Assembly: GCA_018004935.1 (NCBI GenBank) | Contig: JAGNBF010000060.1 | Location: 1 to 44,109, forward strand | Source: Chloroflexota bacterium | Lineage (GTDB): Bacteria > Chloroflexota > Anaerolineae > Promineifilales > Promineifilaceae | Reading direction: 5' to 3' | Length of the DNA stretch: 44,109 nt | Shown here: in pieces, positions 33,280-44,068 of the stretch | How positions within the stretch are numbered: position 1 is the first letter of the stretch | How the letters are laid out: every line of letters begins with the position of its first letter | Position numbers and translations under genes: made by a program | Notes under the pieces: model-generated | Told to the model about the DNA's origin: nothing | Seen by the model: only the letters and a program-made list of their open reading frames with translations | The model's database searches: none

Positions 33280-33311
33280 CGTAACGATTTTCGTAACGGT
33301 CAGTAGACGAT
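33280..33311 (+). promoter_or_regulatory. Composite upstream site CGTAACGATTTTCGTAACG-N6-AGACGAT, copy 1
   Basis: The 19-mer at 33280-33298 and AGACGAT at 33305-33311 recur with identical spacing at 42256-42287. CGTAACG is directly repeated at an 12-bp step. It lies about 57 bp upstream of the membrane protein gene at 33369. It could be an alternative-sigma promoter (first GTAACG as -35, GACGAT as -10, 18-bp spacer) or a tandem activator site. Confidence 0.6.
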
Positions 33312-33368: not shown

Positions 33369-33815
33369 ATGGAAACAACCACAAAACAGGCACAATCAAC
33401 AGGTGATAAGGCGGTGGATGGTCTGCTGGGGGGATTGGTGGCGGGGCTGGCGATGGCGTTGACGTTGGTGGGGGTAGCCCTGGCTTCCGGAGAGAACCCC
33501 GGAGTGATGATGGGGCGGTTTGATGTGGTGAGTGGCAACGCGGCCGCGACCGGAGCCTTACTCCATCTGGCGGTGTCGGGCATTTACGGGGCCGTGTTCG
33601 CTCTCATTTATTATGGGGTGGTGGGGTTGCGGCCGCGGATTCACGCTTACGGCTGGCTGATGGGGTTGTTGTATGGCCTGCTCCTGTGGGTAGTGGCGCG
33701 AGGGGTGTTTTTGCCTGCGGCCGCGTCTCCCCTGCTCGACATTCCCCCGGTTGGTTTCATCCTGGCCCATGTGGTGTATGGGCTGGTGCTGGGCTACCGG
33801 GTGCAGAAGGCGTGA
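33369..33815 (+). CDS. Small multispan membrane protein of unknown function
   Basis: 148 residues with about four TM helices: GLLGGLVAGLAMALTLVGVALA, LLHLAVSGIYGAVFALIYYGVV, GWLMGLLYGLLLWVVARGVF and VGFILAHVVYGLVLGYRV. The Gly- and Ala-rich helices resemble small YagU/DUF1440-like membrane proteins, but I do not assign a family. AAGGAG 8-10 nt upstream supports the ATG. Its promoter region carries the CGTAACG composite site shared with the phosphatase gene at 42307, suggesting common control. Three GCGGCCGC sites (33540, 33629, 33717) lie within 185 bp. Confidence 0.8.
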   Translation: METTTKQAQSTGDKAVDGLLGGLVAGLAMALTLVGVALASGENPGVMMGRFDVVSGNAAATGALLHLAVSGIYGAVFALIYYGVVGLRPRIHAYGWLMGLLYGLLLWVVARGVFLPAAASPLLDIPPVGFILAHVVYGLVLGYRVQKA

Positions 33816-34465: not shown

Positions 34466-34714
34466 CTGACGGGTCTAGCTCTGTTTTCCCCACCAGACCA
34501 GCGAGTACAGAATGTGATTGATCGCCGCTTTTAGCACAAAAAATACAATGCGGAGCAAGCTCTGGCCCGGTTTGCCCAGGTAGCACGGGATGAGGTGGAG
34601 ATGGAGAAGCTCGCGGCCGCGTTGGTTCAGGTCATTCAAGAAACCGTTCAGCCGGAGAAGGTAAACGTGTGGCTAAAACCGACCCCCCCCAGGAGTGTAA
34701 AACGTGATGCCTGA
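34466..34714 (+). pseudogene. Remnant of a KYDAA...WLKP-tail membrane sensor gene
   Basis: In one frame the sequence reads LTGLALFSPPDQRVQNVIDRRF, stop TAG (34532-34534), then HKKYNAEQALARFAQVARDE and on to VNVWLKPTPPRSVKRDA and a stop. Intact relatives read IDRRFYRQKYDAAQVLAQFA there, so TAG replaces a Tyr codon. Everything upstream (the membrane part) is gone. GCGGCCGC at 34613 encodes LAAAL, as in the intact relative at 41276. The last bases overlap the start of the next intact paralogue. Confidence 0.85.
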
Positions 34715-36008
34715 ATATATGAACGCTGAAACTCGGCGCGAAAATAGCCGGTTTACCCCCGCCCAGATTGGCTGGCTGGTCGCCTTCATTTTCTATGGTG
34801 GGCTGTCTATCGCCTCATTGCCCGGTTATATCCGAGGAATCCACGCCCAGGGAATGCCGCTAGACCTCGTTCCTGTGGGTTGGAGTGCCGCCGAAACGCG
34901 GGCTGAACTGGTGGCCTTGGGTTGGCCGGTTGAGGTGTACATCAACGCTTATGCCGTCAGTACAGTTGTTGTTTCTGGTCTGTTCTTTGCCCTGGGGGTG
35001 CTGATCTATGGGCGTAAAACTACCAACAGGATGGCCTGGATTGCTTCATTTACGTTTATGATCAGCGGGGCGGTCACGTTTACCGAACAGGTGGAGCAAG
35101 TGCTCCCCCCAGGTTGGGAAACTCTGAGCGATCTGCTCATTATCATTCCCTCTGGTATCTTACTTCTCCTGCTCCTCTTGCTCTTTCCCAATGGGCGTTT
35201 TGTACCAGGCTGGACGCGATGGATAGTAATTGCTTTTAATGGTGTGCTTGCCGTCAGCCTCTTTTACCCCAACAGCCCATTGTCTGCTTCCGGGTATATC
35301 GGCACATTCGTTACGGTAGGAATATTAGTTTGTGTCATTGGGGCGCAAATGCATCGTTATCGCCAGGTTTCCACACCTGTCGAACGCCAGCAAACACGGT
35401 GGGTGGTGTATGGTATCTCGTTGTTCCTGATGCTGGGTCTGGTTCAAGCTCTGATTGCATCCGTTCTTCCGGGATTGACGGAGCCTGGCGTAGCCGGTTT
35501 GATTGTTCGGGGGTTGGGGGCGCAAATCTGGGGAGGAATTTTCAGTGCTCTCATCCCCCTCTCTTTTACCATCGCCATCTTGCGCCATCGCCTGTGGGAT
35601 ATTGACATCATTATCCGCCGCACCGTGCAATATTCCATCCTGACCGGATTATTGGGTTTGATTTACTTTGGCGGGGTGGTGCTGTTTCAGGGGCTTTTCC
35701 GTACCGCTTCGGGTGAAACTTCCTCACTGGCGGTCGTACTTTCCACCTTGATCATCGCCGCCCTATTTGCTCCCCTGCGTCGCCGTATCCAAAACCTGAT
35801 TGATCGTCGCTTCTTCCGTCAAAAGTACGACGCCGCTAAAGTTTTGGCCGACTTTGCTCGCACCGCCCGCGACGAAACGGACATCAACAAACTAACCGAC
35901 CGGCTGGTACAGGTGGTGCAAGAAACCTTGCAACCAGAACAGGTCAGTTTATGGTTGAAACCAACGTCAATCAAAAGATGGGATCAAGAGGGGAACAAGC
36001 GTGGGTAA
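34704..36008 (+). CDS. Multispan membrane protein with C-terminal coiled coil/GAF-start tail
   Basis: 434 residues with about eight TM helices (for example IGWLVAFIFYGGLSIASLPG, ILLLLLLLLFP, FSALIPLSFTIAILRHRLWD), a ninth and tenth near 320-360, then the tail IDRRFFRQKYDAAKVLADFA...QPEQVSLWLKP. HRLWDIDIIIRRTVQYSILTG and the tail are typical of Chloroflexota/Actinobacteria membrane sensors. GTG 34704, or ATG 34707, follows AGGAG. The tail looks like the N-terminal half of a GAF domain with no second half; the phosphatase at 42307 begins with what looks like the missing half. Its tail DNA is almost identical to that of the gene at 36717. Confidence 0.8.
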   Translation: MMPEYMNAETRRENSRFTPAQIGWLVAFIFYGGLSIASLPGYIRGIHAQGMPLDLVPVGWSAAETRAELVALGWPVEVYINAYAVSTVVVSGLFFALGVLIYGRKTTNRMAWIASFTFMISGAVTFTEQVEQVLPPGWETLSDLLIIIPSGILLLLLLLLFPNGRFVPGWTRWIVIAFNGVLAVSLFYPNSPLSASGYIGTFVTVGILVCVIGAQMHRYRQVSTPVERQQTRWVVYGISLFLMLGLVQALIASVLPGLTEPGVAGLIVRGLGAQIWGGIFSALIPLSFTIAILRHRLWDIDIIIRRTVQYSILTGLLGLIYFGGVVLFQGLFRTASGETSSLAVVLSTLIIAALFAPLRRRIQNLIDRRFFRQKYDAAKVLADFARTARDETDINKLTDRLVQVVQETLQPEQVSLWLKPTSIKRWDQEGNKRG

Positions 36009-36019
36009 GAATCGGTTCG

Positions 36020-36268
36020 TTAAACTGCCAGAGGCATCTGGCGGGTTGTTAGAACATCCAGTGAAGATAAACGTCGTATCTGGTCGGGGCGAACAGTGAA
36101 GAGGGCACGCGTTGTTCCGTCAGGGTTGACAAACTCCACCTCATAAGCCAGGAAAGGGGTGGTGTAAATTTCCACAATCGTGCCTAAATCACCAGCCAAT
36201 ACCTGATGGTCGGGAAAGTTCGTGGTGGTAATGATGGTATCCAATAACTCAATGGCTTTACTGTTCAT
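36020..36268 (-). CDS. DUF4926-family small protein, probable partner of the DUF6883 protein
   Basis: About 82 residues from ATG 36268 (MNSKAIELLDTIITTTNFPDHQVLAGDLGTIV begins here in two segments); GTG/ATG further up at 36301 adds a leader overlapping the upstream gene. The body, GTIVEIYTTPFLAYEVEFVN followed by RALFTVRPDQIRRL, fits the DUF4926 fold (a small beta barrel). Members are commonly found beside DUF6883 proteins, as here. A toxin-antitoxin or immunity role is often supposed but unproven. No GCGGCCGC is present. Confidence 0.75.
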   Translation of the reverse strand: MNSKAIELLDTIITTTNFPDHQVLAGDLGTIVEIYTTPFLAYEVEFVNPDGTTRALFTVRPDQIRRLSSLDVLTTRQMPLAV

Positions 36269-36275
36269 AGGACAC

Positions 36276-36626
36276 TCACTTACGCCTCTGTGCTGGTTCA
36301 ATTGTCACCAGCTCAGCGAAATCCTGTCCGGGGCGGAAAATCCAGACAGTTGTTATCCATCGGGGCTTTCCTACTGGCCCTTGCAACAGGGCCGTGATGA
36401 CATATTTGCGGCCAAATGGCGACGGTTGCCCTGGCTCGGCGGGTTGGGAAAGGTGTTGTTGGCGAATGTCTTGTGCCAAACGCTCCCAAATCTCGACTGT
36501 ATAACCCATTTGAGCAAAGAAGGCGGCTTTATACTGACCGGAACTATGATGCAGATTAAGCGCGTAATCACGCAATTTGCGAGGATCTATGACGACTTTA
36601 CTCGCATTGGGCAATTGCTCCAACAT
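36276..36626 (-). CDS. DUF6883-family protein, possible toxin of a two-gene module
   Basis: 116 residues. The N terminus, LPNASKVVIDPRKLRDYALN, followed by HSSGQYKAAFFAQMGYTVEIW, is the DUF6883 signature. The C-terminal half has ITTVWIFRPGQDFAELVTIEP, a typical closing strand pair. It ends 7 bp before the DUF4926 gene on the same strand. The pair is inserted between two plus-strand tail-protein genes and carries no GCGGCCGC, consistent with a mobile two-gene module. The family call rests on remembered motifs. Confidence 0.72.
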   Translation of the reverse strand: MLEQLPNASKVVIDPRKLRDYALNLHHSSGQYKAAFFAQMGYTVEIWERLAQDIRQQHLSQPAEPGQPSPFGRKYVITALLQGPVGKPRWITTVWIFRPGQDFAELVTIEPAQRRK

Positions 36627-36716
36627 ACCGAGATTATAACAAAGTTGCCTGTCCCGGCTACGAACGATTCCTACCCTTCATTCACATCCCCAAACTCTTT
36701 GGCTTAAGAGGTGAAT

Positions 36717-37292
36717 ATGAGTCCATCTCAACCGGTAAGTGATACGCATTTCAATCGCCAGAGCTACCTGGCTTTATTAGTCGGTGTATGGTTCACTGTT
36801 CTGTCTTTGGCCGTGTTGTTATTGAAATTTGCCCAACCAACCGATGGCTGGTTTTACACCCGAACGGAAGATGGCCTGGCCGAAACCGTCCTGTTTCAGG
36901 GTACAGAGCCAACGCCTCTCCAGGTAGGTGATGTTGTGCGGCAAGTGAAGGGAGAAACATTGAAGTTGACTGGCTCAGTCACAATGCCCCTGGCGATACC
37001 CTTACAAATGGGTCAAACAGTGAACTATACCGTGCAACGAAATGGGCAATTGCAGGATGTTGTGGTGACGCTGATGCCACGGACGCCGCAAAAATACGAC
37101 GCCGCTAAAGTTTTGGCCGACTTTGCCCGCACCGCCCGCGACGAAACCGACATCAACCAACTTACGGCCCGACTGGTAGAGGTGGTGCAAGAAACCCTGC
37201 AACCGGAGCAGGTGACTTTGTGGCTAAAACCAACGATACATAGGGGCTGGAAACCAGAAGATGTCAAATGTGGGCAAGAATCTGTTCATTAG
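36717..37292 (+). CDS. Short PDZ-like membrane protein with the KYDAA...WLKP tail (internally deleted sensor)
   Basis: About 191 residues from ATG 36717 (GTG 36711 also in frame; AGAGG upstream). One TM (YLALLVGVWFTVLSLAVLLLKF) is followed by a PDZ-like region (PTPLQVGDVVRQVKGE, VNYTVQRNGQLQDVVVTL). After MPRTP the sequence goes straight into QKYDAAKVLADFARTARDE and ends in QPEQVTLWLKP. Relatives carry a PDZ and then a many-TM block before this tail, so the TM block appears to have been lost. Bases 37091-37145 nearly match 35822-35876, pointing to recent recombination between the two genes. Confidence 0.75.
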   Translation: MSPSQPVSDTHFNRQSYLALLVGVWFTVLSLAVLLLKFAQPTDGWFYTRTEDGLAETVLFQGTEPTPLQVGDVVRQVKGETLKLTGSVTMPLAIPLQMGQTVNYTVQRNGQLQDVVVTLMPRTPQKYDAAKVLADFARTARDETDINQLTARLVEVVQETLQPEQVTLWLKPTIHRGWKPEDVKCGQESVH

Positions 37293-37354: not shown

Positions 37355-37813
37355 TCAACCATCTGTAGCCACATTCGGTGGCTGATCGCCTCGGACCGCC
37401 CAGAGAAACGGCAGTGCCTTTGTGATCCGCACACCTTTGTATGAATCTCCCAGTGATCCAATGTGTGGATCATATGTAACCAAGAAATCTGCACCCCCGA
37501 CAAGGGCACAGGCAACAATGACATCATCATCGGCATCAATAATCACGACTCGCTCAATGGCTTCATCTGGCACATGCACCCATTCCGCCAACCTATCGAG
37601 CAAGGCTACGAAAATCTCGATGTCTGCCCGCGCGATTCCGCGCCCGACCAGCTTTTCGATGAGTTCGTCAACGATGGCGTCGCACATCAGCAAAGAAAAC
37701 TCGCCCGCCAACCAGCGATCAATCAGTTCTTGGGTTGGGCTGGTGGGACTGTGGCTTAGATACGCTGACACGAAAACATTCGTATCAAACACAGCGCGTA
37801 ACCGGTTAGTCAC
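37355..37813 (-). CDS. PIN-domain toxin (COG1569-like)
   Basis: About 152 residues from GTG 37813 (VTNRLRAVFDTNVFVSA). PIN acidic residues are visible in VFDTNVFVSA, CDAIVDELIEKL and VIIDADDDVIVACAL followed by DFLVTYDPHIG. PIN toxins are Mg-dependent RNases. Its GTG overlaps the last 8 bases of the antitoxin gene (GTGACTAA), a standard layout for coupled toxin-antitoxin operons. Plus-strand frames over the gene are shadows. No GCGGCCGC. Confidence 0.88.
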   Translation of the reverse strand: MTNRLRAVFDTNVFVSAYLSHSPTSPTQELIDRWLAGEFSLLMCDAIVDELIEKLVGRGIARADIEIFVALLDRLAEWVHVPDEAIERVVIIDADDDVIVACALVGGADFLVTYDPHIGSLGDSYKGVRITKALPFLWAVRGDQPPNVATDG

Positions 37814-38099
37814 CTTCCCAATCTCCCTCGATGGCTGTCCCACTGGTAACGGCTTGATTGCGTATCTTCTCACCGACGGCGCGGAATTGCGTCACGAGTT
37901 GGTCAGGCGACATATTACGCAAAGCCATAACATGCTGACGGGCTGTTCGGCGAATATCGGCTACCGTTCCGGTGGCTCTCTGCTGTTTGAGGAGGGCCAC
38001 AATGTCCAACAAAATGGCTAAATCGTCATCGGGAAGGCTGGCGACTTCGACCACAGTGCGGCGGAACAAAGATTGGTCGGTCACTAGGACAGGGTTCAT
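37806..38099 (-). CDS. Antitoxin partner of the PIN toxin
   Basis: About 97 residues from ATG 38099 (MNPVLVTDQSLFRRTVVEVA), preceded by AAAGGTG; GTG 38108 is an alternative. It has an N-terminal helical part with SLPDDDLAILLDIVALLKQQ and ends in GDWEGD. I do not recognise a named family, but the size, the order (antitoxin first) and the overlap with the PIN gene support the call. Confidence 0.75.
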   Translation of the reverse strand: MNPVLVTDQSLFRRTVVEVASLPDDDLAILLDIVALLKQQRATGTVADIRRTARQHVMALRNMSPDQLVTQFRAVGEKIRNQAVTSGTAIEGDWEGD

Positions 38100-38304
38100 C
38101 AGTTTCACCTTTATTCTTTATGGGTTACTTATATTGCTACAATTTCACTGCCATTATAGCATGAAGGTTCTATGTCCGAAACCCTCGCGCCTTGTGGTAG
38201 GAAAGCCTTAAGAGTTGGTTCAGAATGAGCTTGGATGGCAAGGTGAGGAGATTGTCCACAGCCAACGCAAATCTGTAACACAGGTGAGTTTCATAACCGG
38301 AAAT

Positions 38305-38403
38305 GGGTCTTGGGGATTTCGTGGCGTAGGGGCTACCCGGTCGAGAGCAACCACAAGGGTATACTCCTACACTTACTGTCAACCCCCTGAGTTCCCAAAG
38401 AAC
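38305..38403 (+). repeat. MITE-like dispersed element, copy D, in a 320-bp gene-free gap
   Basis: It starts gggtcttggggatttcgtgg and ends cccctgagttcccaaagaac. The middle is more diverged than in copies A-C. The gap 38109-38427 separates divergent antitoxin and oxidoreductase genes and should hold both promoters; none was clear. Confidence 0.65.
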
Positions 38404-38427
38404 TCAGGATACCCGCATAGGATAAAT

Positions 38428-39882
38428 ATGGTAAGAGAAAAAAAACAATACGACGTTGTTGTGGTGGGTGGGGGGCCAGCCGGGGTGACGGCGGCTCTGC
38501 GGGCCGGGGAACTGGGGGCCAAAGTAGCTCTGGTGGAACGCGGCCGCCTCGGGGGAACCTGCACCAACGATGGCTGTGTCCCGACCCGTGCCCTGGCTAA
38601 AGCCGCCCGCCTGCTCCGCGACGCTGACCAATTTGCCGCTTATGGGCTGATCGGCGCACCCCCGACCGTAGATTTACCGGCTCTGCTGGCCCGCACTCAA
38701 GAAATCGTCTACAGCATCCAGGAGAAAAAACAGCTCATCAAACACCTGGAATCATCGCATGTGACGGTATACACGGAAGTGGGCGCGGCCGCGTTCCAAG
38801 ACCCCCACACCCTCATCACCACCAACGGGACCCGGCTCCAGGCCGACAAATTCATCCTCTGTGTCGGGGGGCAGGCCCGGCGGCTGGATTTCCCCGGCGC
38901 GGAATACGCTCTGACCCACAGCGATGTCTGGACGCTAAAAGCGGTGCCGCGCACGGTAGCCATTGTCGGCGCGGCCGCGACCGGTTGCCAGTTAGCCTCG
39001 ATTTTTGCCGACTTTGGGGCCGAGGTGTGGCTGTTAGAACTGGCCCCCCGCATTCTGCCTGGCGAAGATGTTCATGTCTCCCAGGCCATGAATGCGGCAC
39101 TGGCCCACAAAGGCATCCATGTCGTCACCGGGTTCTCGGGCCTGACCGGGATTGAGCGAGATGAAGACGGTTTGCGCCTCATCACCCCGGCGGGGGGGCA
39201 GGACACCCCCCCGGTTGCGGCGGTCATTTTGGCCGTGGGCTGGCCGGGTAATGTGAGTGGGTTGAACCTCGCGGCCGCGAACCTCACCCCCGAACGTGGT
39301 TTTATTCCCGTCAACGATTATTTGCAGACGCCCGTGCCCCACATCTTTGCCGCCGGGGACATCACCGGGCGCATGATGTTGGTACAAAGTGCCGGGTACG
39401 AAGCCCGCATCGCCGCCGAAAATGCCGTTCTCGGTTTGCAACGCCGTTACCAACACCTGATTGTGCCGCATGGCGGCTTCACCGACCCCGAATATGGCAG
39501 TGTGGGTCTGACCGAAGCCCAGGCCCAGGATGCGGTGACGGCGGTGGTTCCGTTTGCCGCCATTGACCGGGCGGTGATTGATGGGCGCACCGAGGGGTTT
39601 TGTAAGTTGATTGTGGCCCGCCAGACACACCAAATTTTGGGGGCGCATGTGGTGGGAGAGCAGGCGGTGGAGATTGTGCAGTTGGTCGCGGCCGCGATGT
39701 CTGCCGGGAGTCGCATCGAACAACTGGCCGAACTGGAACTGGCCTATCCCACCTACACCGCCATCGTCGGCCTGGCCGCCCGCCGCATCGTTTACGACCT
39801 CAACCTCATCGCCCTATCTCCCCAGTGGCGGGCGTTAGGCCACCAGGCCGCCGAATGGGAACGGAGTGAAGATAAAGAATGA
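38428..39882 (+). CDS. FAD-dependent pyridine nucleotide-disulfide oxidoreductase (mercuric reductase/lipoamide dehydrogenase-like)
   Basis: 484 residues from ATG 38428 (AGGA upstream); a longer frame to 38215 only reads through a repeat. FAD-binding VVVVGGGPAGVTAALRAGELGAKV is followed by the redox-active disulfide GGTCTNDGCVPTRA (Cys pair 5 apart). NAD(P)-binding is VAIVGAAATGCQLASIFADFG, and the second FAD motif is FAAGDITGRMMLVQSA. The dimerisation domain ends with ELAYPTYTAIVG; the catalytic HxH-P-T of lipoamide dehydrogenase reads LAYPT, so it is closer to mercuric-reductase-like or uncharacterised branches. No N-terminal metal-binding domain. The substrate is unknown. Five GCGGCCGC sites are present, three in the NAD and FAD motifs. 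Confidence 0.9.
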   Translation: MVREKKQYDVVVVGGGPAGVTAALRAGELGAKVALVERGRLGGTCTNDGCVPTRALAKAARLLRDADQFAAYGLIGAPPTVDLPALLARTQEIVYSIQEKKQLIKHLESSHVTVYTEVGAAAFQDPHTLITTNGTRLQADKFILCVGGQARRLDFPGAEYALTHSDVWTLKAVPRTVAIVGAAATGCQLASIFADFGAEVWLLELAPRILPGEDVHVSQAMNAALAHKGIHVVTGFSGLTGIERDEDGLRLITPAGGQDTPPVAAVILAVGWPGNVSGLNLAAANLTPERGFIPVNDYLQTPVPHIFAAGDITGRMMLVQSAGYEARIAAENAVLGLQRRYQHLIVPHGGFTDPEYGSVGLTEAQAQDAVTAVVPFAAIDRAVIDGRTEGFCKLIVARQTHQILGAHVVGEQAVEIVQLVAAAMSAGSRIEQLAELELAYPTYTAIVGLAARRIVYDLNLIALSPQWRALGHQAAEWERSEDKE

Positions 39883-39908: not shown

Positions 39909-40001
39909 GCGGAGCAGGTCAGTTTGTGGCTAAAACCAACGACACAGCGGGGGTGGAATAAAGAGGAGATAAAACGTAGTGCTAAATCGGTTAACCAATA
40001 A
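39909..40001 (+). pseudogene. Remnant of a WLKP tail
   Basis: In one frame: AEQVSLWLKPTTQRGWNKEE and then IKRSAKSVNQ, stop. This matches the ends of the genes at 34704 (EQVSLWLKPTSIKRW) and 36717 (EQVTLWLKPTIHRGW). Only the last 30 codons remain, just upstream of the intact tail gene at 40100. Confidence 0.8.
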
Positions 40002-40099: not shown

Positions 40100-41386
40100 A
40101 TGCAAATAACCCCTTCTGCCACAACCATTCGCCAGCCCTGGCTTAATCTGGCCCGTATCACCTGGATGCTCCTGTCAACTATGACCACTATCGCCTTTGT
40201 CACCGGTTTTGTACTTTCGCTCCGTGAGCCATTACCAACCTGTGTGGCCGCTGAGGTCGTCTGTGGTCCCTGGCACTTTAGCCAGGAAGATATAGCCCTG
40301 GCCCAACAACAAGGATTACCGGTTCAACTCATGATGGTAATCTACTTTGTCAGTTCGCTTTTGCCCAAACTATGTTTTGTTATGGTGGCCTTGTTTATTT
40401 TCTGGCGTCGCTCCGATGATTGGGTTGCCCTGCTTTTATCGTTGATGATGATCGGGTTTGTGATTGAAGGAGTGCAAAATTTAGGCCCCTTCATGCCTCT
40501 GGTGAATGGGTTGTATGCCCTGATCACCGGTATCTTCATGCTTTTGCCGTTCATCTTTCCCAGCGGTCGCATCGTTCCAGGCTGGTTATGTTGGTTCATC
40601 CCCCCGCTCATCTTGGGGGGTGTAGCCACAACCTTATTACCCCAATTGGGGGTTCCCATGACCGAGCAATTTTTTGCCCTGACCACAATGGTCACGTTTT
40701 CCCTTTGGTTTCTGCTAGGAGGGTACGCGGCGATTTACCGTTATCGGTATGTGTCCAACACCATCGAACGACAGCAAACCAAATGGGTCATAGGGGGCAT
40801 TCTGGGCACATTTACCCTGTTCATTCCTTTTACCATCATTGCCCTTGCCTATCCCCCATCACAACCATCGTCGGCCCGTCTGTCGTTTTTCTTTTTCGTT
40901 TTTCTCCCTATTTATCTTTTTAGCTATTTCTTGTTGCCGGGCAGTATTGCCTTTGCCATTCTGCGTTACCGGTTATACGACATTGATGTCATTATCCGCC
41001 GCACCCTGCAATATTCATTGGTGACCGGTTTGTTAGCTCTGGTTTATTTTGGGGGCGTGGTCGTGTTGCAAGGGATTTTCCGCACTGCGTCGGGGGAAAC
41101 GTCGGCCCTGGCTGTGGTTTTGTCTACTTTGATGATTGCCGGGTTGTTTGCGCCGTTACGCGGCCGCATCCAAACCATCATTGACCGTCGCTTCTACCGC
41201 CAAAAGTACGACGCCGCCCAGGTGTTGGCCCAGTTCGCCCAGACAGCCCGTGATGAAGTGGAGATGGAACAGCTCGCGGCCGCAATCATCCACACCATCG
41301 CAGAAACCATCCAACCAGAGACGGTCTCTATCTGGCTAAAACCGGTTGTCCAAAATAAGCAGAGATGGGAAAAAGAACAGATTTGA
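40100..41386 (+). CDS. Multispan membrane protein with C-terminal coiled coil/GAF-start tail
   Basis: 428 residues from ATG 40100 (AGGATAGG upstream); the longer frame from 40043 has no support. About ten TM helices, with LLPFIFPSGRIVPGWLCWF, YRYVSNTIERQQTKWVIGG, YRLYDIDVIIRRTLQYSLVTG and FRTASGETSALAVVLSTLMI shared with the gene at 34704. The tail is RRFYRQKYDAAQVLAQFAQT...LAAAIIHTIAETIQPETVSIWLKP. GCGGCCGC at 41160 and 41276 lie in the tail region. The next plus-strand gene is the SpoIIE phosphatase, separated only by the inverted protease pair, so these two were probably adjacent once. Confidence 0.82.
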   Translation: MQITPSATTIRQPWLNLARITWMLLSTMTTIAFVTGFVLSLREPLPTCVAAEVVCGPWHFSQEDIALAQQQGLPVQLMMVIYFVSSLLPKLCFVMVALFIFWRRSDDWVALLLSLMMIGFVIEGVQNLGPFMPLVNGLYALITGIFMLLPFIFPSGRIVPGWLCWFIPPLILGGVATTLLPQLGVPMTEQFFALTTMVTFSLWFLLGGYAAIYRYRYVSNTIERQQTKWVIGGILGTFTLFIPFTIIALAYPPSQPSSARLSFFFFVFLPIYLFSYFLLPGSIAFAILRYRLYDIDVIIRRTLQYSLVTGLLALVYFGGVVVLQGIFRTASGETSALAVVLSTLMIAGLFAPLRGRIQTIIDRRFYRQKYDAAQVLAQFAQTARDEVEMEQLAAAIIHTIAETIQPETVSIWLKPVVQNKQRWEKEQI

Positions 41387-41401
41387 CTGGGCGTAATAGG
41401 T

Positions 41402-41821
41402 TCAAACAGATCGTTGACGGCGATTGCGGATACGATTTACCATCACATCATTCAGTAAATCAGTTTGTTGTGACGCACCATCCAAGAATAGGGGCAATTT
41501 GTTCAACACATCACGCCCAAGAATGATGTCATCGCCGTCTTCATCAGCCACAACATAACTACTGGCAAGCGCGAGGTTTTCGACCTGGAAGGCTACAACA
41601 TACAACTGGGCCGGTCTGCTTTCGCCAAAATGACTCCGCACGCGGCCGCTAAATGCCTCTAATGCCTCAATGTCTTCAAGCAAAGCCAACGGCACAAATG
41701 TAACATCTGCGCCCGTATCCAATAAGGCCGGGAACGGCCCTTTGATGGTATCGCCATTACGTAAATAGATCATCAGGGTGGGAAAAGATGGGCGAAAACT
41801 TCGATTATAAGGTGTGCTCAT
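41402..41821 (-). CDS. Retropepsin-like aspartic protease (clan AA)
   Basis: 139 residues. FPALLDTGADVTFVPLALLED has the DTGA catalytic motif (Asp about 36), and DDIILGRDVLNKLPLFLDG is the psi-loop strand IILGRD that follows the flap in single-lobe retropepsins. Such proteins act as homodimers. Its ATG overlaps the stop of the upstream gene (ATGA), so the two are translated together. In many bacteria similar proteins are coded beside small antitoxin-like proteins; their role is unknown. GCGGCCGC at 41642 encodes SGRV. Confidence 0.8.
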   Translation of the reverse strand: MSTPYNRSFRPSFPTLMIYLRNGDTIKGPFPALLDTGADVTFVPLALLEDIEALEAFSGRVRSHFGESRPAQLYVVAFQVENLALASSYVVADEDGDDIILGRDVLNKLPLFLDGASQQTDLLNDVMVNRIRNRRQRSV

Positions 41822-42201
41822 TGGGAATGGAGTAATTGAGGGCGGCGAACCGTATAAGTTGGCAATGGTTCATCTTCAACAAAAGCGATCAAGACAGGCA
41901 CTCGGCCAAATCGGGCTTTAACCCGTTTGACCAGTTCATCCAAATCGCTATCCTGATCAACCACCTGTCCCTGATGGATGGCAACGTGCTGATGGTAATA
42001 ATCCTGCTTCAATCTCGAATGTAACTGGATAAAATGCTGATTTTCTTGCTGAATTTTGTCACGCCGGGCCTGCTGAAGATATTGACGCACCAGTTCATCC
42101 AGAACGTTTTCCACCTTCAGCCCTTGTTCAGCCACAATTTCTTGCAAGGATTCTAGCAAATCTGTTTTTAGGGGTATGGGCGTCAACAAGGCCATATTCA
42201 T
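41818..42201 (-). CDS. Small partner protein of the retropepsin, antitoxin-like
   Basis: 127 residues. The N-terminal part (LLESLQEIVAEQGLKVENVLDELVRQYL) looks like a ribbon-helix-helix or helical dimeriser. The C-terminal part (HQHVAIHQGQVVDQDSDLDELV, RFGRVPVLIAFVEDEPLP) resembles DUF5678-type domains. AAGGAG precedes ATG 42201. It overlaps the protease by 4 bp. Function unknown; the layout resembles toxin-antitoxin modules. Confidence 0.72.
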   Translation of the reverse strand: MNMALLTPIPLKTDLLESLQEIVAEQGLKVENVLDELVRQYLQQARRDKIQQENQHFIQLHSRLKQDYYHQHVAIHQGQVVDQDSDLDELVKRVKARFGRVPVLIAFVEDEPLPTYTVRRPQLLHSQ

Positions 42202-42255
42202 ATTCTCCTTCAGGTTACGTTTATTCTAGCAGAAAGCAGAGGCCAGAGTAATATT

Positions 42256-42287
42256 CGTAACGATTTTCGTAACGATGAGCAGACGAT
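42256..42287 (+). promoter_or_regulatory. Composite upstream site CGTAACGATTTTCGTAACG-N6-AGACGAT, copy 2
   Basis: It is identical in the 19-mer (42256-42274) and in AGACGAT (42281-42287), with the same spacing, to 33280-33311. It ends 19 bp before ATG 42307 of the phosphatase gene. If AGACGAT is the -10, the leader is very short. Confidence 0.6.
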
Positions 42288-42306
42288 TGAACGGTAAGAT
42301 AAGACC

Positions 42307-43902
42307 ATGATCAATTTACGCAAACCCTTCTGGCAAAAACAACTGAAAGCTGACCCGCCCCCAGAACCGGTAGCCGAAACGGTCGCGGCCGCGTTCCCCG
42401 CCGAACCCATCCAGCTAGATATGGCCCCCAATGATCCCTTGCTGGCTTATGTGCAACAAAACCCCGGGGTACTCGATGTCAACCGGTTGAAATTGGATTC
42501 CCCCGCCTTACAGCAGTTGCGCCAGGCCGGTATCCAAATGGTGATCCCCCTCGTCAGCCAGGGTGAACTCATCGGCCTGATCAATCTGACCTCACGGCGG
42601 AGTGAACAAGAATATACGAGCGATGATTACAAACTCCTGGCCGATCTGGCCGTGCAGGCCGCTCCGGCTCTGCGTGTGGCCCAACTGGTTCACCAGCAAA
42701 AATTGGAAGCGGCCGCACGGGAGCGCATCGAACAAGAACTCCGGGTCGCCAAAATCATCCAACAGACCCTTTTACCCCAGGAACTACCCGCTCTGCCCAA
42801 CTGGCAGGTCAATGCCTACTATCAACCGGCCCGTGCCGTGGGCGGCGATTTTTACGATTTTATCTATTTTGAGGATGGGCACGTGGCTTTCATCATCGGT
42901 GATGTGACCGACAAAGGGGTCCCGGCGGCTCTGGTGATGGCCACAACGCGGGCAATTTTGCGTGCGGCCGCGGAACGGCTCGAATCTCCCGGCGCAGTTT
43001 TACAACGCACCAACAACGTCCTGGTCAAAGAAATTCCCCCCAAAATGTTCGTCACCTGCTTCTTTGCCATCCTCAACCCCCAAACCGGCCACCTGCGCTA
43101 CGCCAACGCCGGACATGATGTACCCTACCACGCCACCCGCAACGGCGTCGTCGAACTGCGGGCGACCGGGATGCCCCTCGGCCTTCTACCCGGCATGTAT
43201 TACGAAGAAAAAGAAACCACTCTGGCTCCGGGCGAATATGTCCTGCTTCACAGCGACGGTCTGGTTGAAGCCCACAACCCCCAACGGGAGATGTTCGGCT
43301 TTCCCCGTTTGCAAGCCCTCATGGGCCAGACCCAGGCCGACACCGATTTGAATGCCTTTATGTTAGCCGAGTTGACCGCTTTTACCGGGGCCGGTTGGGA
43401 ACAGGAAGATGATGTCACATTGGTGACACTGCATAACACAACCCCCTACACCGAAGCATCAACTGATACGTGGGAATCTCTGGCCTCTTTTACCCTGCCC
43501 AGTGCCCCCGGCAACGAACGTGAAGCCATGGAACGAGTCGCCGCCCTCATTGCCCCTCTGCCCTTAACAACCAAACAGGTTGATCGGCTCAAGACAGCCG
43601 TAGCCGAAGCGACAATGAATGCGATGGAACATGGCAACCGGTACGACCCCGATAAACCAGCCGCGATCACCGTCGCGGCCGCGGCCAACGCCGTTCGTAT
43701 TTGCATCACCGACCAGGGCGGTGGGCCACCGGTTCCCACCGCCGACGCTCCCGATCTGGAAGCCAAGCTGGCCGGAACCCAATCTCCCCGTGGCTGGGGA
43801 CTTTTCCTCATCAAAAACATGGTAGACGAAATGCACATTCACCACGATGACCACCACCACACCATCGAACTCATCGTCCATTGGCAGAATAAAGACAGCT
43901 AG
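42307..43902 (+). CDS. SpoIIE-type PP2C phosphatase fused to an anti-sigma-like HATPase domain
   Basis: 531 residues. Residues about 35-130 look like the second half of a GAF domain (MVIPLVSQGELIGLINLTSR). A coiled coil (LEAAARERIEQELRVAKIIQQTLLP) leads to the PP2C/SpoIIE domain: ARAVGGDFYDFIYF, FIIGDVTDKGVPAALVMA, YANAGHDVPY, LHSDGLVEAHN, and EQEDDVTLV with metal Asp residues. An RsbW-like ATPase ends the protein: KTAVAEATMNAMEHGNRY, ITDQGGGPP and RGWGLFLIKNMVD. Proteins like this dephosphorylate STAS anti-anti-sigma factors and can phosphorylate or bind them, controlling a sigma factor by partner switching. The gene starting at 44069 may be the STAS partner. Four GCGGCCGC sites. Confidence 0.92.
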   Translation: MINLRKPFWQKQLKADPPPEPVAETVAAAFPAEPIQLDMAPNDPLLAYVQQNPGVLDVNRLKLDSPALQQLRQAGIQMVIPLVSQGELIGLINLTSRRSEQEYTSDDYKLLADLAVQAAPALRVAQLVHQQKLEAAARERIEQELRVAKIIQQTLLPQELPALPNWQVNAYYQPARAVGGDFYDFIYFEDGHVAFIIGDVTDKGVPAALVMATTRAILRAAAERLESPGAVLQRTNNVLVKEIPPKMFVTCFFAILNPQTGHLRYANAGHDVPYHATRNGVVELRATGMPLGLLPGMYYEEKETTLAPGEYVLLHSDGLVEAHNPQREMFGFPRLQALMGQTQADTDLNAFMLAELTAFTGAGWEQEDDVTLVTLHNTTPYTEASTDTWESLASFTLPSAPGNEREAMERVAALIAPLPLTTKQVDRLKTAVAEATMNAMEHGNRYDPDKPAAITVAAAANAVRICITDQGGGPPVPTADAPDLEAKLAGTQSPRGWGLFLIKNMVDEMHIHHDDHHHTIELIVHWQNKDS

Positions 43903-43904
43903 TC

Positions 43905-44025
43905 AGCCGGTCAGCTTGTCAGCTAGTCAGCCAGCGGCCAGCGGCCAGTCAGCCAGCGGTCAGCGGCCAGTCAGCCAGCGGTCAGCGGCCAGTCAGCCAG
44001 CGGTCAGCGGCCAGCGGCCAGCCAC
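43905..44025. repeat. Minisatellite of a 22-bp unit (CAGC-rich)
   Basis: Three exact 22-bp copies of ccagtcagccagcggtcagcgg start at 43945, 43967 and 43989, flanked by partial copies and by shorter gtcagc/ggcc words from 43903. A faint relative (gtcagtcattagccagtcagcc) lies at 3221-3242. It separates the phosphatase from the next gene. Confidence 0.9.
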
Positions 44026-44068
44026 TGAACTGCTGACACGCTACAACGCTTTTCCCACAGGAGACAAC

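Follow-up and report, generated by a model that had tools for sequence, protein, structure and literature searches.

A GAF domain apparently divided between truncated membrane receptors and a shared PP2C phosphatase in Chloroflexota and Actinomycetota

Why does a phosphatase open in the middle of a GAF domain, and why does the membrane protein encoded beside it stop where such a domain has only begun? The question is raised by a locus in a stretch of 44,109 nt from Chloroflexota bacterium (Promineifilaceae; assembly GCA_018004935.1, contig JAGNBF010000060.1, positions 1-44,109 of the forward strand), referred to below as the window. The locus codes for membrane receptors, here called heads, and for a phosphatase of the PP2C type carrying an incomplete GAF domain, here called the half-GAF. 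Our analyses point to a split-receptor system in which, probably, one of many membrane heads completes the GAF domain of the phosphatase in trans, so switching the enzyme. The features on which the argument turns are as follows.

40100..41386, + strand: intact head, an open reading frame (ORF) with about 10 hydrophobic segments by simple hydropathy, followed by the start of a GAF domain.
41153..41344, + strand: C-terminal tail of this head, consisting of signal helix, GAF helix 1 and strand 1 (PLRGRIQ...VSIWLK), placed by positions 284-345 of the PrsK profile.
41402..41821, - strand: insert gene for a retropepsin-like aspartyl protease (PF13650, 30.8 bits against a cut-off of 24.3).
41818..42201, - strand: insert gene for a DUF5678 protein (PF18929, 31.2 bits against 23.2).
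42256..42300, + strand: promoter-like element recognized in the sequence, with two copies of CGTAACG at a period of 12, CAGACG in the third register and, 7 bases upstream of the phosphatase ATG, a TAAGAT box.
42307..43902, + strand: phosphatase/kinase hub (ORF, Pfam) comprising half-GAF, helical linker, SpoIIE-type PP2C and HATPase_c_2.
42415..42672, + strand: half-GAF, residues 37-122, aligned by Pfam with GAF positions 47-133.
42874..43434, + strand: PP2C (SpoIIE) domain PF07228, residues 190-376 (169.6 bits against 25).
43498..43875, + strand: HATPase_c_2 domain PF13581, an anti-sigma-type kinase of the RsbW/SpoIIAB type, residues 398-523 (79.3 bits against 27.4).

A sequence-only reading of this stretch had proposed that the head ends past its WLKP strand with a GAF domain half done, that the phosphatase begins with the remainder, and that the two genes are neighbours apart from an inverted two-gene insert (41402-42201). 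The ORF positions agree with the last point, and the truncation lies where it had been placed: the stop codon of the head at 40100-41386 falls 13 residues past ...VSIWLKP, and this protein gives neither a Pfam match at the curated cut-off nor any match to Pfam GAF. The phosphatase does open with the rest of the domain. A complete GAF (PF01590) is not contained in its polypeptide, which matches the profile above the cut-off (34.0 bits against 22.4) over positions 47-133 of 133 only, and Pfam GAF_3 over positions 46-127 of 129. Judging from these alignments, the absent piece is about the first third of the domain, namely helix 1 and strand 1, and not half of it, a point on which the earlier proposal has to be corrected. 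In three other split phosphatases scanned the Pfam GAF match begins at 36-50. The window enzyme retains the blocks GGDFYD, GDVTDKG, SDG and QEDD, which we take to be the metal-site blocks of PP2C.

That the cut is beyond chance is indicated by a known single-chain architecture within which both pieces adjoin: on the NCBIfam profile PrsK (TIGR02916) the window tail takes up positions 284-345 and the phosphatase start positions 366-468, adjacent and in order. The same profile was matched at E<=0.01 by 17 of 60 tails and by 37 of 39 phosphatase starts.

The truncation recurs across loci, which were classed with profiles of the tail, half-GAF, PP2C and ATPase after 16 had been dropped (14 duplicates, plus L064 and L108, which are two copies of a single locus at a contig edge). 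Residues near the stop codon are among the most conserved of the 60 tails, drawn from 36 loci, W61 being invariant and T52 and P55 nearly so. Among 106 tail-bearing ORFs on the same strand as 41 half-GAF phosphatases, some of them fragments of heads, the stop codon comes 0-30 residues past the tail match (median 6; within 16 in 95 of the 106); L094 also has an ORF with a tail on the other strand, which continues for 298 more residues and stands outside this count. The heads have mostly 8-10 hydrophobic segments.

Elsewhere the two pieces occur in one protein. The single-protein fusions L054 (1050 aa, 9 hydrophobic segments) and L055 (979 aa, 8 segments) carry these segments, the tail, a linker, the rest of the GAF domain, PP2C and ATPase in that order, and in both Pfam GAF is matched above the cut-off over positions 2-130 of 133, spanning tail and phosphatase start. 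Fused homologues, for which the sequence-only reading had suggested a search, are therefore present. The full profile (1-133 of 133) is matched above the cut-off by L059 (3 hydrophobic segments) and below it by L060 (4 segments); L052 matches Pfam GAF partly, and L056 does not match it. In eight fused ORFs 22-61 residues separate the tail Trp from the half-GAF motif (D/N)DP (duplicates left out; L058, L097, L123 and L143 not measurable in this way), and the split therefore sits in a loop that varies anyway. In a quick tree the Ktedonobacterial fused forms are nested among the half-GAF rows, the forks being weakly supported, and a tree with the 61 half rows forced to one side was not rejected (approximately unbiased test, p-AU 0.572) after removal of 11 rows, mostly long branches and including L101 and L117 (rows classed as 'other' that group with half rows), which favours one clade. 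A single origin of the split is possible on these trees. Close relatives of the phosphatase carry by eye other N-terminal parts, HAMP-type in L061-L063 and receiver-type in L065, and the same PP2C core therefore seems to accept several sensor modules.

Stop-codon readthrough was considered as a natural route to fusion and rejected. In L029, L066, L068, L077 and L080, five of the 36 loci that have a head upstream, one in-frame stop separates the nearest head from the phosphatase frame, and the rejection rests on three points: in L029, L066, L077 and L080 the gap holds the promoter-like element, the stop varies (TGA or TAG), and frame sharing, found in 14 of the 36 loci, is about what chance gives.

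Structure prediction bears on whether the pieces fit. The split pair of L080 was modelled with AlphaFold2 as one chain of tail, linker and half-GAF, its TAG read as Gln, from an alignment of 89 rows (the query and 88 others, of which three are natural fusions and all others contain a tail or a half alone). The blocks that include tail helix 38-53 and strand 57-62 have a predicted local distance difference test score (pLDDT) of 81-95; the values are 92-95 for tail residues 41-60, 90-98 for the half-GAF and about 50 for the linker. Foldseek matched this model to 23 PDB chains at E<=0.001, including the GAF domains of Lcd1 and PDE5A, and the best VIA-align match was PDE2A (1mc0 215-394; Z 14.0, root mean square deviation 3.1 over 159 residues) among 50 rows with Z 11.5-14.0, many of them GAF and phytochrome structures. 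The joined pair is thus predicted to have a GAF fold. In contrast, the start of the window phosphatase modelled alone (39 rows) shows two strands of at least 3 residues, each 7-8 long, and the half-GAF alone gave no PDB match at E<=0.001 with Foldseek, its best Z being 5.8 to 1mc0 273-400. Independent folding of each part, which the sequence-only reading had named as the result that would speak against it, is not what these models indicate. They predict that tail and half-GAF fit one another, and speak to this fit, not to a meeting of the chains.

The pieces also keep company in genomes. A stand-alone tail ORF on the same strand lies in the flank of 41 of 65 half-GAF phosphatase ORFs against none of 11 full-GAF ones, a comparison in which many flanks covered only 1.5 kb and 44 other PP2C ORFs were left out. 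Positive and control genomes were hand-picked, three with partial matches (G164, G212 and G369) being left aside; tail matches occurred in 27 of the 28 half-GAF genomes, with a best E of at most 5.4e-23 in each of the 27. The matches over these 28 genomes total 207 (0-19 each), a number that may include tails of fused proteins (fusions are present as well in G251 and G314), and among the matches listed four lie in open frames longer than 600 aa. Eight of 40 control genomes had a tail match, none of them strong (all E>=6.7e-13, seven in frames longer than 800 aa). Four genomes with fused or other forms (G196, G100, G265 and G279) had 2, 2, 1 and 0 tail matches, the best at E 1e-16 to 2e-18. Named hosts include Ktedonobacter racemifer, Kribbella, Blastococcus saxobsidens, Rubrobacteraceae, Acidimicrobiia and Thermoleophilia, and heads stand in rows of 5-8 in both Actinomycetota and Chloroflexota, the longest having 8 (L100, Nocardioidaceae), 7 (L081), 6 (L066 and L098) and 5 members (L077, Kribbella).

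The half-GAF profile, on the other hand, gave exactly one match at E<=1e-53 in each of the 12 half-GAF genomes searched. Beyond this hub, other half-GAF effectors were sought in the same 12 genomes and the further matches were weak (E>=1.5e-14), save a full-GAF protein in G251 (6.6e-37). With one half-GAF match and many tails per genome, one hub therefore faces many heads, also where the heads are scattered, and the suggestion that several membrane heads share a phosphatase holds by copy number, with up to 19 tail matches in a genome. The window genome has one half-GAF phosphatase (the next best match, E 2.7e-51, is without a half-GAF) and, confined to this locus, four strong tail matches; one further match (E 3.8e-4) lies inside a frame of 1321 aa.

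A direct-repeat element upstream of half-GAF phosphatase genes, in which CGTAACG recurs at a period of 12 and is followed by (G)GACG, often with a TAnnnT box, links the two kinds of gene further. GTAACG, expected 0.04 times per 270 bases, is present in the upstream stretches of 54 of 63 half-GAF phosphatases, 0 of 11 full-GAF and 2 of 42 other PP2C genes, and 11 of 87 heads. The exact double element occurs 16 times, in nine of 14 half-GAF genomes and none of 14 controls, and its reversed pattern once in half-GAF genomes and four times in controls. It precedes a half-GAF phosphatase in six cases, a head in five, all elsewhere in the genomes, and other genes in five. The phosphatase seems, from this pattern, to have its own promoter, which would account for the lack of evident harm from the insert upstream of it; the element may also define the regulon of the system. 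Other genes behind it include a trypsin-like protease and small membrane proteins.

Taken together, these results suggest the following mechanism. Each head, presumably a sensor, carries signal helix, helix 1 and strand 1 and ends within the variable loop that follows strand 1; the rest of the GAF domain, the helical linker, PP2C and the anti-sigma-type ATPase lie on the single phosphatase. A head would dock by placing strand 1 in the gap of the phosphatase GAF sheet, a fold complementation in trans in the manner of a donor strand. Docking would anchor the enzyme at the membrane, and the sensor would set the linker and thereby the PP2C dimer. The output would consist of STAS proteins encoded by neighbouring genes, dephosphorylated by PP2C and phosphorylated by the ATPase domain, and many heads would share one hub. 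From this arrangement we infer binding between head and phosphatase, activation of the enzyme, the direction of the switch and competition among heads.

Several results weigh against this proposal. No head was found in the flank of 24 of the 65 half-GAF ORFs, many of these flanks being short, and L075 and L103 have no heads within nearly 10 kb or more on both sides; in the case of L075 the 21 kb available hold none, and its genome (G092) carries six tails. One half-GAF genome, G239 (84% complete), has no tail match, and five of the 14 half-GAF genomes lack the exact double element. The membrane parts of the fused proteins do not match the head profile, except for a head-like match in L097, and by their sequences L054 and L055 are relatives by the tail and not demonstrated head fusions. 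As to the joined model, a stop codon was read as Gln to make it a single chain, and three of its 89 rows are natural fusions. In favour of the proposal, the tails of one locus resemble each other more closely than the similarity of their membrane parts would lead one to expect (residual +0.112; 17 of 21 loci positive). A need to fit a single partner would have this effect, and so would gene conversion; the window's own tails depart from this trend (residual -0.026). A mirror-tree analysis (31 loci, 79 heads, partial correlations given PP2C and ATPase) was set aside as support for the pairing of tail and half-GAF, as it was not specific: the correlation of 0.22 (p 0.009) compares with 0.20 (p 0.013) for membrane part and half-GAF and 0.32 for tail and ATPase, and falls to 0.15 (p 0.055) when the membrane part is also controlled.

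Finally, the half-GAF alone still resembles a partial GAF domain, with a mean pLDDT of 85.6 and best PDB matches that are GAF chains, though weak (the best at E 2.2e-3). This favours an alternative in which the half-GAF closes by itself or by a strand swap with a second phosphatase, the tails pair in head dimers, and heads and phosphatase communicate indirectly or through another surface. The models described here are of single chains, and PP2C linkers of such kind have been proposed to dimerise (PMC12143880). We nevertheless consider this alternative unlikely: the solitary half forms only the two strands described above and finds no PDB match at the threshold used, and self-closure does not account for the presence of strong tails alongside half-GAF in one set of genomes and their fusion in another.

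A second alternative concerns the neighbouring genes. A STAS ORF lies near 59 of the 65 half-GAF phosphatases; in the window locus it comes just past the window (from contig base 44296 on; L053:297-617) and is followed by a Ser/Thr kinase gene. Downstream of the phosphatase in L075, L078, L081, L084, L086, L092 and L094 stand, judging from ORF sizes, two small genes and ORFs of about 247 and 480 aa. In L078 and L094 the former product has no Pfam match and the latter is FAD/amine-oxidase-like, and the two small genes of L078 code for STAS proteins. This recurrent set is possibly the output of the system. The heads might then merely recruit the phosphatase, with the tail as an anchor and strand 1 completed or replaced by another protein, STAS or the downstream product of about 247 aa. 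The recurrence of STAS genes beside the phosphatase and the protein without a Pfam match in L078 and L094 would suit this idea, to which we give little credence, since tail and half-GAF have the order and spacing of a single GAF domain in the fused forms and in PrsK.

Other copies of the tail and of the promoter-like element are present in the window:

33280..33298, + strand: the only other exact double copy of the promoter-like element in this genome (pattern search), 70 nt upstream of the gene for a small membrane protein (33369-33815) that precedes the head cluster.
34496..34684, + strand: degenerate tail copy with one TAG inside (tail match; repeat family D2).
34704..36008, + strand: second intact head, with the same tail at 35772-35966 (ORF, tail and head profiles, hydropathy).
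36711..37292, + strand: short head with a transmembrane part, a PDZ-like stretch (PDZ_2, E 3.9e-4, below cut-off) and the tail, the usual membrane core missing.
39910..39992, + strand: remnant of a tail end, the SLWLKPT region (sequence; repeat family D4).

Three of the five tail copies are thus degenerate, short or remnant, as they would be if tails were partnerless relics of split genes or of histidine kinases since lost, and the arrays decaying duplicates, which we hold to be very improbable in view of the conservation of tail residues near the stop codon (invariant W61, nearly invariant T52 and P55), the rows of 5-8 heads in two phyla and the exact double element before five distant heads.

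In three places a tail-bearing gene is followed, 12-63 bases past its stop codon, by an inverted two-gene insert: 36020-36626 (DUF4926/DUF6883), 37355-38108 (a PIN domain protein and a partner without a Pfam match) and 41402-42201 (retropepsin-like/DUF5678). The PIN pair and a gene for a pyridine nucleotide-disulphide oxidoreductase (38215-39882) lie between the tail copies at 37086-37292 and 39910-39992, as if the tail repeats were recombination sites. Between phosphatase and STAS gene (43905-44040, and about 109-210 of L053) short repeats, a string of Ns and a duplicated STAS start suggest that a scaffold gap is likely there.

To return to fold complementation by the heads, we are inclined, with some reserve, to regard it as widespread in Chloroflexota and Actinomycetota, in the form of interchangeable receptors around a shared hub, a regulon with its own promoter element, and combinatorial, reversible complementation of a GAF fold. 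If so, it would provide a natural sensory domain divided between receptor and enzyme, through which as many as 10-20 receptors feed one output without duplication of the enzyme, and a likely role for the many truncated membrane proteins, of which those scanned match no curated family. The binding site would be predicted to the residue, a ready-made split domain would be available for receptor engineering, and the extent to which GAF signalling depends on the placement of strand 1 would become testable.

We found no description of such a split-GAF system in the open-licence literature, an absence that is weak evidence. The closest architecture is PrsK, the XrtA/PEP-CTERM histidine kinase (TIGR02916), whose profile the window pieces match side by side and in order. 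PrsK is, however, a single chain with a histidine kinase output; the window proteins reach 24.6 and 25.8 bits against its cut-off of 300, and the heads scanned have no kinase domain. In the donor-strand complementation of pilus subunits, too, the missing strand of a fold comes from another polypeptide, where it serves assembly and folding, whereas here it would serve signalling. In the general stress response of B. subtilis, RsbT is reported to act in trans to order a coiled-coil linker of RsbU, dimerising and activating its PP2C domain, a mechanism extended by modelling to GAF-bearing phosphatases (PMC12143880). In the system proposed here, by analogy, a partner in trans would also govern the linker and dimer of a PP2C; in contrast to RsbT, a separate partner that binds a whole N-terminal domain and linker, the membrane protein would supply part of the domain itself. 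Phosphatase-kinase fusions of the Rv1364c type, known from partner switching, likewise join PP2C to an anti-sigma-type ATPase (PF07228 and PF13581, with a STAS gene nearby here), differing, according to PMC12143880, in their PAS domain and fused anti-anti-sigma domain, in place of which the present system has an incomplete sensor domain and a separate STAS protein. With STAS encoded alongside the phosphatase, the output side would be that of a partner-switching phosphatase, a known kind, and there is a real chance that the coupling principle itself is new.

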